Virus record (IMG/VR): IMGVR_UViG_3300044971_000758
Location: 1 to 22,753 of that record
DNA from: a virus
Strand: one strand, 5' to 3'
DNA length: 22,753 nucleotides
Shown here piece by piece: positions 4,177 through 15,094 of this stretch. The translations under genes and the position numbers were made by a program. Positions within the stretch are counted from its first letter, which is position 1, and the number at the start of each line of letters is the position of its first letter. A model generated the notes under the pieces. It was not told the DNA's origin, made no database searches, and saw nothing but the letters and a program-made list of their open reading frames with translations.

Positions 4177-4986
4177 TTATTTGATTGCCCACTTGGGGAA
4201 TGAGAGTTCTTGGATTCCTTCAACTGCCTTGGGGAAATACTTCTCCGAGACGCATTTCTGGTATTTGGCTATGGCGTTCATGTACCCGATTCTCCCTTGT
4301 TCGATGAAATCACCGGACAGGTTGACGATTGCGGTTTCATAAGGCGCAGATGTTTCGACAAAGGCAAGCACAAAATTCGTGCGCTCCAGCCCCGTGGCGG
4401 CGTTGAACAGGTCGAGGTAGAGGGCGGCTTGCCAATGGTAGCCTCGGCGCACCACAAGGGACGCTAGGTCGTCAGCCTTGCCGATGCTGGAGGTTGTCTT
4501 GATGTCCACCAAGTCATCCCCTGCCTGTGGCACTAGGTCAATCATCCCGCGCACCTTGGTTTCCCCGATCTGCGAGTAGACTGCAACCTCGGTCTTGTAG
4601 CCAGAGACAAATAGCGGCTGAAGGTCAAGGTCATTGAGGATCGACTCCGCGCATTCGTTTGCGGCGTTGAGTTGGGATTGCGTGATGCAGACCTTACCCT
4701 GTGCCACCATCGAATCCCGCCATTCCTGTGCCGCTTTGGTACGGAATGAGTCGTATTCGCTCACGGCATAGGTTTCGGCGTACTCGGTGGGCGTGAGAGC
4801 AAGGCAATGCACAAGGCTTCCAAACTCCATCGCCGGCGTTGTCTCCTTCGGGCCGCTGTGGAACCATTTCCATGGACTTTGATCGAAGTCCCAGAGCATC
4901 GATTTGGAGACATATCCGCCCAAGTTGGAGGGGCTTGCGCCCCCCTCGTAATACTTGCGCCCTAGGTTGTAGACTAGCTCACTCAT
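4177..4986 (-). CDS. RecE/lambda-exonuclease-like PD-(D/E)XK nuclease
   Basis: A 269-aa protein matching the DUF3799/RecE-type nuclease: SKSMLWDFDQSPWKWF near residues 27-42, MEFGSLVHCLALTP (53-66), then the catalytic core RGMIDLVP...LVDIKTTSS (Asp, then Asp-x-Lys; residues about 144-167), and YHWQAALYLDLF, the QxxxY-like helix. The family degrades one strand of dsDNA 5'-3' to make tails for RecT. The gene directly follows recT and overlaps it as ATGA (4983-4986), so the pair would be made together. Length is in the usual range for the stand-alone nuclease domain. Confidence 0.88.
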   Translation of the reverse strand: MSELVYNLGRKYYEGGASPSNLGGYVSKSMLWDFDQSPWKWFHSGPKETTPAMEFGSLVHCLALTPTEYAETYAVSEYDSFRTKAAQEWRDSMVAQGKVCITQSQLNAANECAESILNDLDLQPLFVSGYKTEVAVYSQIGETKVRGMIDLVPQAGDDLVDIKTTSSIGKADDLASLVVRRGYHWQAALYLDLFNAATGLERTNFVLAFVETSAPYETAIVNLSGDFIEQGRIGYMNAIAKYQKCVSEKYFPKAVEGIQELSFPKWAIK

Positions 4987-5753: not shown

Positions 5754-5937
5754 CGTCGATTTTGTTTAGTTCGTTTAGTTGTTTTGCGATGTGCGTCCCC
5801 ACCGCAACGGGGTCGAATAAGGGCATTCCTTCCCTCATTACATGTGGAATGTAGCCATCTGCGGCCCATAGGGCGACAACGGCTGGAGGCAGCTTCAAAT
5901 CATCTGCCATCTCATGCAAGCTAAATAATCTAATCAT
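5722..5937 (-). CDS. Small HTH/excisionase-like DNA-binding protein
   Basis: A 71-aa protein (MIRLFSLHEMADDLKLPPAV...) with a MerR/excisionase-like winged-helix pattern: LHEMADDLKLPPAVVALWAADGYIP, then LFDPVAVGTHI. The tail is Asp/Thr-rich. The frame is open to 6000, but the ATG at 5937 overlaps the DnaA-like gene's stop as ATGA, so that start is preferred. Its stop lies 32 bases inside recT. It could be a regulator or accessory replication factor; no integrase is present to make it a clear excisionase. Confidence 0.65.
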   Translation of the reverse strand: MIRLFSLHEMADDLKLPPAVVALWAADGYIPHVMREGMPLFDPVAVGTHIAKQLNELNKIDDGNTTDTTTN

Positions 5938-6290
5938 GCTATTTTTTCTTTTGGGGTTTCTTCTTCCATAGGGGCTTCGTTTATTAGGCGTTGGAGGCAC
6001 TCGCGCACTTTGTCTGCGAATCGGTCGTCGTGCTCGATCAAGAAGCGCACCCGCTCCCGTGCATGCATTACCGCGCCATGATGCCGGTCGAGCCGGTAGC
6101 CTGTTTCCTGCAATGAGTGGTTTTCGCTCCAGATTGTGGCCACAAGTTGCCTTGGCTCAACCCACCGCGCAAATCGTGAGCGGCAAAGGATCTGTTCGGG
6201 CGTGACGGCAAAGACATCAGCCACAATGCGAACCAAAAACGCGAACTTGTCGGCTTCTGTGTCCTCGTAGAGTTTCCAATTTACCTTCAT
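5934..6290 (-). CDS. Stand-alone DnaA domain IV-like protein
   Basis: A 118-aa protein in which residues about 18-92 follow the DnaA C-terminal DNA-binding domain: VADVFAVTPEQILCRSR (VAxxFxVxxxDLxSxxR), EPRQLVATI (the ARQIAMYL helix), and LDRHHGAVMHARERV in place of the DnaA signature RDHTTVLHA. The AAA+ ATPase domain is absent. H71 is kept, but the two signature Thr are Gly72 and Ala73, so box recognition may differ. It could mark the phage origin, recruit host replication proteins, or compete with host DnaA. The ATG follows AAAGGGGG by 6 bases and overlaps the upstream stop as ATGA. Confidence 0.78.
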   Translation of the reverse strand: MKVNWKLYEDTEADKFAFLVRIVADVFAVTPEQILCRSRFARWVEPRQLVATIWSENHSLQETGYRLDRHHGAVMHARERVRFLIEHDDRFADKVRECLQRLINEAPMEEETPKEKIA

Positions 6291-6720: not shown

Positions 6721-7032
6721 TTATTCAAGCGACCAGTCGACATCGTCAGCCGGCGGGTCGATATGTTTTCGCCCCCATAGGGTTTCCAATCGGTGCAAGT
6801 CGATGCCAAGGCATGCCAAGACATCAGCATAGGTTTCAGCGTCGATGTTGCAAAGCGCGGCCTTGTCGTTTGCGTGGTATTCCATGAGCAACGGAAACAT
6901 TTCGTGGTCTTCGTGGTGGTCGATTTCCTCCGCCGCTTTTTGGATGCATTCAAGCACCCAGGGCGCATCATCCGTGGACACCCCTGCCCCCGTGATAAGG
7001 GCAAGGGCTTGCGCTTTCCATTGTGGCATCAT
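6721..7032 (-). CDS. Hypothetical acidic phage protein, 103 aa
   Basis: A 103-aa protein, acidic and helical, with a His/Asp/Glu-rich stretch (EIDHHEDHEMFPLLMEYHAND) that could bind metal. It ends DDVDWSLE. An overlapping ORF in another frame (6687-7004) is Thr/Arg/Lys-rich and non-natural in composition, so this frame is chosen. It starts with two ATGs (7032, 7029); AAAGGGGG lies 6 bases upstream of the first, and the upstream gene's TGA is embedded in ATGATG. Function unknown. Confidence 0.75.
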   Translation of the reverse strand: MMPQWKAQALALITGAGVSTDDAPWVLECIQKAAEEIDHHEDHEMFPLLMEYHANDKAALCNIDAETYADVLACLGIDLHRLETLWGRKHIDPPADDVDWSLE

Positions 7033-7184: not shown

Positions 7185-7503
7185 GCAGTCCCCCTTTCGC
7201 CTTGGAAATGGCCGATTCTGCTATTTCACGGCATACGCGGCAAAGATCGGCCAGATTTTCCCGCTGTATTTCCACGCTTGCGGGTGACAGTCCAACGGCT
7301 AGGGACTCCAACGCAGCGAGCAAGTCGGGCGCGGCAGCGATTAGGCGGGCATTCGCTTCGGCTTCGGTTTGATTGTCGGGCCATTCCGAGAGCCTAGCGA
7401 TTTCCACAAGCTCGCTGTCGATTGCCCATGCGTGATCAGGGCTGGCATCGAGTGTGACGGGATACCAAGGGCCAGGCGTGTGTGTGTGTGTGTCTGTTTT
7501 CAT
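7177..7503 (-). CDS. HTPGPW-type hypothetical phage protein
   Basis: A 108-aa protein of a type very common in phages and prophages: N-terminal HTPGPW, a beta region ending IARL, then EANARLIAAAPDLLAALESL. Function is unknown. Near the start, eight GT units on the plus strand (7478-7493) encode the THTHT stretch. It is the first gene downstream of the hammerhead ribozyme, so after cleavage its mRNA would start with the 17-base stem-loop I of the ribozyme. The ATG lies behind an SD-less leader (CCACGAAAAAACA). Its last codons provide the AAAGGGGG used by the next gene. Confidence 0.85.
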   Translation of the reverse strand: MKTDTHTHTPGPWYPVTLDASPDHAWAIDSELVEIARLSEWPDNQTEAEANARLIAAAPDLLAALESLAVGLSPASVEIQRENLADLCRVCREIAESAISKAKGGLHN

Positions 7504-7524: not shown

Positions 7525-7574
7525 GATCTCATCAGCACGGGAGAAACCCGTGGACGGCTCGCGCCGTTTCGATC
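7525..7574 (-). ncRNA. Type II hammerhead ribozyme
   Basis: Read on the minus strand from 7574 to 7525, all core elements are present. GATC then GAA (positions 12-14). Stem III: ACGGC/GCCGT with a GCGA (GNRA) tetraloop, including the A15.1-U16.1 pair. The cleavage triplet is GTC, cutting 3' of C at 7553. Stem I: CACGGG/CCCGTG, 6 bp with loop TTTCT. The conserved CTGATGA follows directly, then GATC, which pairs with the first GATC to form a 4-bp stem II (G10.1-C11.1 kept). The open end is at stem II, so this is a type II hammerhead. It starts 10 bases after the stop of the 7585-7791 gene and ends 21 bases before the ATG at 7503. Confidence 0.93.
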
Positions 7575-7584
7575 TGGTGGTTTT

Positions 7585-7791
7585 TTAATGCATGCGGCCT
7601 GACATGAAGTGATCGTCCATCGCTGCTGCCTCGAAGTCGCGCCATGCCTGCTTTGCTGCTTCGCCTGTCATGATTGACTTGTCAACCGGGAAGTAAAGCA
7701 CAAGGTCGCCTCGCCTTATTTTTTCTCCGGTTTTTGTGATTGAGTCAAATTTAGCATTAATCCATCTAGGGTCGCTGGTGTACGTTCTCAT
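7585..7791 (-). CDS. Hypothetical phage protein, 68 aa
   Basis: A 68-aa protein (MRTYTSDPRWINAKFDSITKTGEKIRR...) with a beta-strand N-terminal half containing GEKIRRGDLVLYFPVDKS, an SH3-like look, and a helical C-terminal half (AAKQAWRDFEAAAMDDHF). Similar small proteins occur in phage early regions, but I know no function. It has a strongly A-rich SD-less leader (AAACAAAACAAAACAAATC before ATG). It is the last gene upstream of the hammerhead ribozyme; its mRNA would gain a new 3' end on cleavage. Confidence 0.75.
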   Translation of the reverse strand: MRTYTSDPRWINAKFDSITKTGEKIRRGDLVLYFPVDKSIMTGEAAKQAWRDFEAAAMDDHFMSGRMH

Positions 7792-14110: not shown

Positions 14111-15094
14111 ATGGGAAAAAAACCAAAAGCAGTAGCCCCACCAAAGGTTGATTACGCAGCTGACATTCGTGCTGGATTGACTGCCTATCAGCAATCGCTA
14201 CCGAGCATTCTGGCGTTTGAACAGCAGTACCGTCCTCAGTTCACTCGCCTTAATCAAGAGCAGATTGATCTTGCTCGCTCTCTTGAGTTAGCCAGCATGG
14301 GTCGCAATGTAGGAACAGTTCGTGGGCTGCTCCAATCGCTTTCCCCAGAACAAGCCCGTGAGGTTCAGGCGGCAAGTGGACTTGCTGAGCAAGCTCGTCA
14401 AATGCAGGCTGGGTATCAAGATGCTGCTACACCGATTGCCCAAAAAGCGATGGAGCAATATGGCGGCTTGTCTGCGCTTCAGACTCAAGCAGCGCAAGAA
14501 GCATATGGAAGGTCTGGTCGCCTGTCTCCAGAGCAACTCCGCTCATCACAGCAGGCAGCCAGAGAAGCCGCAGCAGCATCTGGACGGATTGGTGGCAATG
14601 CAGCAATTTCCGCAGAGGTAATGAACAGGGAGCAAGCCCTTGCTCAACGCCGAGCCGAGGCCGCACAATATGGTGGTATCGCGCAACAAGGTGCTATGGG
14701 TCTTGCAGGGCTATCACAAGACATCGAAAACCAACGCCTAGCCCGTCAGTCTGGATTGCTTAGTCAAGCGTCCTCACTTGGCACTCAAGCATACAACCTT
14801 GGGCAGAATTTCTATAGCCCCGGACTCGGGTTGCTTGGCGGTACTCCAGTATCCGCTCAACAAGTTGGGCCACAGCTATTCTCGCCAGATGCGTTCCTCA
14901 ACCTTGGTGCGGCTAACAGGCAAAATATTTTGAACGCTAATGCAGCTACGCAGCAAGCACGGGCCTCATACTCATCTGGATTGTTTAGTGGATTGGGCGC
15001 ACTCGGTGGGGGCTTGGCTTCTGGAATTGGAGCAGCTGGGGGTATTGGTGCGCTTTTTGGTGGAGGTGGGGCTGCAGGAAAATCAATGGCTTAA
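14111..15094 (+). CDS. Candidate DNA-ejection protein, gp14-like
   Basis: A 327-aa, Ala/Gln-rich, helical protein. The N-terminus is basic (MGKKPKAVAPPK), followed by long helices (LAFEQQYRPQFTRLNQEQID, LARSLELA, EQARQMQAGYQDAATPIAQK). The C-terminal 40 residues are Gly-rich and hydrophobic (LFSGLGALGGGLASGIGAAG), a probable membrane-active segment. Composition and position, the first of three genes between nozzle/fibre and terminase, match T7 gp14 or other podophage ejection proteins. There is no sequence-level family proof. The leader lacks an SD. Confidence 0.6.
   Translation: MGKKPKAVAPPKVDYAADIRAGLTAYQQSLPSILAFEQQYRPQFTRLNQEQIDLARSLELASMGRNVGTVRGLLQSLSPEQAREVQAASGLAEQARQMQAGYQDAATPIAQKAMEQYGGLSALQTQAAQEAYGRSGRLSPEQLRSSQQAAREAAAASGRIGGNAAISAEVMNREQALAQRRAEAAQYGGIAQQGAMGLAGLSQDIENQRLARQSGLLSQASSLGTQAYNLGQNFYSPGLGLLGGTPVSAQQVGPQLFSPDAFLNLGAANRQNILNANAATQQARASYSSGLFSGLGALGGGLASGIGAAGGIGALFGGGGAAGKSMA

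Follow-up and report, generated by a model that had tools for sequence, protein, structure and literature searches.

Does the gap between two genes of a leftward phage operon hold a working self-cleaving RNA and, if so, what would it do there? The window, by which we mean the whole 22,753-nt stretch of viral DNA analysed here, contains at 7525-7574 on the minus strand a motif that an earlier note, made from the letters alone, described as a complete type II hammerhead ribozyme. We put the probability at about 0.82 that the motif is functional and maintained by the phage, belongs to a type II hammerhead class without the usual pseudoknot, and cuts the leftward operon RNA between cistrons.

Anatomy of the motif

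On the minus strand, from 7574 down to 7525, the letters are GAUC-GAA-ACGGC-GCGA-GCCGU-C-CACGGG-UUUCU-CCCGUG-CUGAUGA-GAUC. The parts, all on the minus strand, are as follows.

7525-7574, minus: whole type II hammerhead ribozyme (sequence, descriptor scan with shuffles, held-out covariance model at 66.4 bits, genus-level covariation)
7575, minus: unpaired A ahead of stem II, kept in the class (52/53)
7571-7574, minus: stem II 5' strand GAUC, pairing with 7525-7528 (in relatives GAUC/GAUC versus AGUC/GACU)
7568-7570, minus: core G12-A13-A14 (GAA), invariant in 14 relatives
7554-7567, minus: stem III, ACGGC (7567-7563) with GCCGU (7558-7554), comprising A15.1-U16.1 and four G-C pairs
7559-7562, minus: GNRA tetraloop GCGA capping stem III, from the sequence
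7553, minus: C17 of the GUC triplet, from the sequence
7536-7552, minus: stem-loop I, CACGGG (7552-7547) with CCCGUG (7541-7536), 6 bp, with double changes in 5/6 pairs among relatives
7542-7546, minus: pentaloop UUUCU of stem-loop I (class consensus U-N-A-N-K)
7529-7535, minus: core CUGAUGA, from the sequence and relatives
7525-7528, minus: stem II 3' strand GAUC, the open end of the type II topology, covarying in relatives
7524, minus: unpaired A past stem II, kept in the class (51/53)

The motif has the invariant core CUGANGA...GAA in full, A15.1-U16.1, and GUC as its NUH triplet. Sequence, fold and covariation in relatives agree on three stems, of 6 (I), 4 (II) and 5 (III) bp; loops close I and III, whereas II is open. 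The minimum-free-energy fold is exactly the hammerhead secondary structure (-20.3 kcal/mol, z -2.74). By homology with the hammerhead mechanism, the cut is predicted between 7553 and 7552. What the earlier note had said of the core bases, stem lengths, GNRA loop and GUC all holds on reading the minus strand, and its cut after 7553 is the one predicted here. At position 3 of loop I the window copy has U where the class usually has A (U in 20/193 members), which may weaken a tertiary contact in this copy.

Chance expectation and covariance models

The motif would rarely arise by chance. No hammerhead, whatever its type, that combined a canonical core with stems of 6/4/5 bp or longer occurred in 1500 dinucleotide shuffles of the whole window, and a stem total of 15 bp was reached in two of them. 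The window itself holds one hammerhead only.

The sole Rfam ribozyme match at the locus is Hammerhead_II with 23.0 bits, below the gathering score of 37. Eleven relative loci likewise gave no match at the Rfam cut-off, though the relatives show compensatory changes (see below). The shortfall arises because RF02276 describes hammerheads that form a pseudoknot and have a stem II of some 3 bp, while the window motif represents a second class; among 20 mixed loci, every hammerhead that reached the gathering cut-off was of the pseudoknot class. A covariance model of the second class was made from 41 related sequences, with the window and its close relative L083 left out; its training alignment shows strong covariation, in members chosen partly by pairing. 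Run on the window, this held-out model has the hammerhead as its only match (66.4 bits, E 5e-17). The covariance-model check that the earlier note had proposed was thus failed with the Rfam model and passed with the class model.

Conservation in related phages

Contigs of the same phage group were found through the ORF at 6721-7032 and the exonuclease ORF at 4177-4986, and 25 were examined, window included. Of these, 16 have a hammerhead of the class, always on the coding strand of the corresponding region upstream of ORF 6721. Across the 14 distinct sequences 99.5% of pairs are preserved, and stem I alone occurs as CACGGG/CCCGUG, CAUGGG/CCCAUG, UGCUGG/CCAGCA and UGCCAG/CUGGCA, while stem III varies between CGGC/GCCG and CCGC/GCGG. 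Compensatory changes affect 8 of the 15 pairs, with 33 double-changed cells against 9.3 in shuffles (0/500 as high); these related sequences are not independent counts, but the distinct pair changes are nonetheless numerous. The signal is lost when the pairing partners are slid along the same 14 sequences. In L083, the closest relative, the motif matches that of the window at all but three bases, which lie in loop I. Compensatory changes, whose lack in related phages the earlier note had named as a ground for dropping the idea, are therefore present.

Nine of the 25 contigs are without the motif, and a search of these for degenerate hammerheads or other Rfam ribozymes found none. The motif is therefore dispensable, and its presence is patchy, since these nine have neither motif nor remnant; the flanking genes also vary between carriers. 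A near-identity DNA search of annotated phages gave no match, and searches with the tail and virion proteins gave weak matches or none. One relative contig without a hammerhead, L347, has an abiF RNA at 14521-14557 (Rfam RF03085, 47.2 bits).

Two architectures of type II hammerhead

How the motif stands among viral hammerheads was assessed in viral contigs fetched by a pattern in which the core letters alone were fixed. A stem I of 5 bp or more together with a stem III of 4 bp or more forms in 125 of the 135 distinct matches, against 66/27000 with the gap letters shuffled, so that the matches are real hammerheads. They split into two architectures. In one, the pseudoknot class of Perreault et al. 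2011, stem II is about 3 bp long and loop I can pair with the 3' tail over at least 4 bp in 98/114 (28 expected from permuted tails). In the other, stem II has 4 bp, stem-loop I is exactly 17 nt and the loop I-3' tail pseudoknot is found in 0/52. The two lengths are strongly coupled (Fisher p 1e-25). The second architecture also has an A on each side of stem II (52/53 and 51/53), a 6-bp stem I and the pentaloop U-N-A-N-K. The conserved unpaired As and pentaloop positions suggest a possible non-Watson-Crick contact of stem-loop I with stem II.

The window motif belongs to this non-pseudoknot class, as its 4-bp stem II, flanking As, 6-bp stem I and held-out model score indicate; only its loop position 3 is a minority variant. 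A pseudoknot between its UUUCU and the 3' tail was considered and rejected, the longest match being 3 bp, and the combination that defines RF02276 (a loop I-3' tail pseudoknot of at least 4 bp with a short stem II) is absent from the window copy.

A class-specific pattern matched at least 119 stretches in IMG/VR, and a similar but broader one had 11 matches in 84,980 cellular genomes, almost all of them on MAG contigs. The class is mainly viral and rare in cellular genomes, as judged by patterns that differed between the viral and cellular scans. Surveys that rely on the Rfam cut-off would undercount phage hammerheads.

The flanking genes

Two ORFs border the ribozyme.

7585-7791, minus: upstream ORF, 68 aa, of no family; an 88% identical protein in L083
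7177-7503, minus: downstream ORF, 108 aa, PHROG 1273 of unknown function (E 1.8e-15)

Both are real and co-directional, each having relatives elsewhere; the upstream ORF has no PHROG or Pfam match. Its stop codon lies 10 nt before the ribozyme (9-10 nt in the window and L083), and the downstream ATG lies 21 nt after the ribozyme and 49 nt after the predicted cut. The earlier note's figure of 10-50 bases between the cut site and the two reading frames is in keeping with this. The window's downstream gene is preceded by no clear Shine-Dalgarno sequence. The label 'early', which the earlier note gave to these genes, may fit the region, to judge from its RecT/exonuclease/resolvase operon.

A tie between the hammerhead and the PHROG 1273 gene was also considered and rejected. 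A few of the loci fetched by the PHROG 1273 gene contain a hammerhead, but close homologues of the downstream ORF in L003 (61%) and L330 (84%) are preceded by none. Across the class, 71 downstream genes match 46 different PHROGs with little repetition. The association is therefore with the boundary and not with the gene.

Some minor features of the region may be recorded here. The same operon has a 118-aa ORF (5934-6290) with a DnaA C-terminal DNA-binding domain (Pfam PF08299, 37.8 bits) and the rest of DnaA absent. The PHROG 1273 protein has an N-terminal Thr-His repeat, encoded by a CA dinucleotide repeat at 7475-7497, and the homologous gene in L003 has a similar ACACAC run. CAA-repeat runs follow just after the hammerhead in L320, L322, L350 and L357, and such leaders are seen in many relatives; lying between ribozyme and start codon, they are probably unstructured spacers.

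Placement at gene boundaries

Placement was assessed for 193 class members with distinct flanks, taking neighbour genes within 300 nt. Of these members, 88% lie between called genes, and the neighbours are co-directional in 150/152 cases downstream and 149/151 upstream, against about half for random positions; such percentages are approximate, since a simple gene caller was used and the contigs were partly chosen by the ribozyme pattern, which in the second viral scan fixed the flanking As. The upstream stop codon falls within -1 to +3 nt of stem II in 111/149, with a peak at -1 nt (46/149), where it is mostly a TAG built from the conserved A of the class and the first G of stem II. On the other side, the median gap from ribozyme to start codon is 23 nt, and 108/124 such gaps contain a Shine-Dalgarno-like motif. 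The window layout of stop codon, 10 nt, ribozyme, 21 nt and ATG fits this geometry, whose regular order (stop codon, ribozyme, Shine-Dalgarno, start codon) predicts exact RNA ends.

Where a contig has several hammerheads, all 106 neighbouring pairs less than 3 kb apart are on one strand, and 69 of the 106 intervals contain exactly one called gene. Runs of five to seven consecutive type II hammerheads between small genes are seen in L113 (8402-11317), L175 (3617-6699) and L086 (6231-9036).

Proposed function and alternatives

The motif most probably serves to divide the RNA of the leftward RecT/exonuclease operon, by self-cleavage, into smaller mRNAs. Once the operon is transcribed, the RNA would fold in the intercistronic gap and cut itself between 7553 and 7552. 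Shortly past its stop codon the upstream message would then finish in stem III, a hairpin capped by the GNRA loop, and carry a terminal 2',3'-cyclic phosphate; the downstream message would have a 5'-OH, the hairpin of stem I at its head and next an A/C-rich leader, with its start codon 49 nt beyond the cut. The phage could in this way split cistrons without a host RNase. Cleavage in the cell, the chemistry of the ends and any effects on stability or translation we infer. The class as a whole probably cuts long messages into single-gene pieces. Processing cistron by cistron is strongly supported because members lie between co-directional genes, with 0/106 pairs in opposite orientation. The transcript-processing device of the earlier note is thus well supported by position, but the idea had already been put forward by Perreault et al. 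2011 for prophage hammerheads (PMC3088659). The note's further suggestion, that the device sets differential stability of the early genes, is conjecture.

Other readings deserve consideration. A chance resemblance, or plain hairpins such as those of a terminator, would account for the Rfam score under gathering, but the shuffles, the held-out model and the covariation speak against it, compensatory changes in relatives contradict it and no minus-strand terminator-like site was found at 7525-7574; we regard it as barely conceivable. Production of unit-length or circular RNA in the manner of viroids and retrozymes is hardly more credible. Hammerheads do act so elsewhere (PMC6155905), yet the window's hammerhead is single and Perreault et al. 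sought circular or spliced products and found none (PMC3088659). A more serious contender, if still an unlikely one, is that the ribozyme is a selfish or hitch-hiking element, carried along by small gene cassettes, that matters little to the phage. Its scattered occurrence (16/25), the differing genes at its flanks and its clean absence from nine contigs are what such an element would give; the identical region and strand in all carriers, a structure kept by compensatory changes and stop/start spacing consistent across the class are not.

The spacing itself invites another reading: with the upstream stop codon at or inside stem II, a ribosome that terminates there would prevent the ribozyme from folding, and cleavage would then report slowed translation of the upstream gene. 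The sharp stop-codon peak at -1 nt, the concentration between -1 and +3 nt and the TAG shared with the conserved A and first G of stem II all point this way. Genome compaction alone, however, could give the spacing, since the A-G dinucleotide that the class requires can readily double as a stop codon; moreover, in the window and L083 a gap of 9-10 nt separates stop and ribozyme, and the called stop is often further off in other relatives. Such gating is unlikely. The broader proposal, that in many phages a dedicated non-pseudoknot type II hammerhead separates cistrons and is docked on the stop codon with its folding and cutting coupled to translation termination, is similarly speculative; if true, stop-docked hammerheads would form an RNA-only system for operon processing and translation sensing.

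Comparison with known systems

Cistron separation by processing has a well-known protein-based counterpart. RNase III sites between T7 early genes cut the polycistronic early mRNA at gene boundaries and leave hairpin ends, much as proposed here. T7 processing needs the host enzyme and leaves a 5'-phosphate, whereas hammerhead ends carry 5'-OH and cyclic phosphate.

With known type II hammerheads (PMC3088659; RF02276) the window class shares permuted topology, core, intergenic placement in phages and clusters flanking single genes. It departs from the Rfam/Perreault consensus, with its loop I-3' tail pseudoknot, in the 4-bp stem II, fixed 17-nt stem-loop I and flanking As; the legend of Figure S5 of Perreault et al. 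lists non-pseudoknot contacts (PMC3088659). The 6-bp stem I and 4-bp stem II recall type III hammerheads of plant satellites and retrozymes, where the loop contacts are non-Watson-Crick (PMC7936874). In type III, however, stem III is open, loop I has 6-8 nt and a 4-nt loop closes stem II, which in the window class is open and flanked by two As. The HHphage of haloviruses HF1/HF2 similarly lies in the early region, 13 nt upstream of a start codon, and a mapped transcript 5' end close to its predicted cut is cited by Perreault et al. (PMC3088659); unlike the window motif, it has the variant core of archaeal viruses and precedes the first gene of the transcript instead of lying between cistrons.

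Perreault et al. observed cleavage of phage fragments with several hammerheads both in E. coli and in vitro, and under the conditions used 4 of the 18 hammerheads that fitted the consensus were inactive (PMC3088659). De la Pena et al. noted that hammerheads flank small ORFs and called the prokaryotic role an open question (PMC6155905), on which a class common in phages has a bearing. The present analysis adds strong evidence that the motif is maintained, a defined class missed by the Rfam cut-off, a regular stop/start geometry and a viral bias.

Further putative self-cleaving RNAs were seen in passing. L026, another phage contig, has a type I hammerhead candidate at 5804-5853, shortly downstream of a PHROG 1273 gene. 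L105 has a type II hammerhead and, some 180 nt on along the same strand, a Type-P5 twister ribozyme (840-894 and 1070-1124; Rfam 44.8 bits for the twister), so that different self-cleaving classes occupy the same kind of location.
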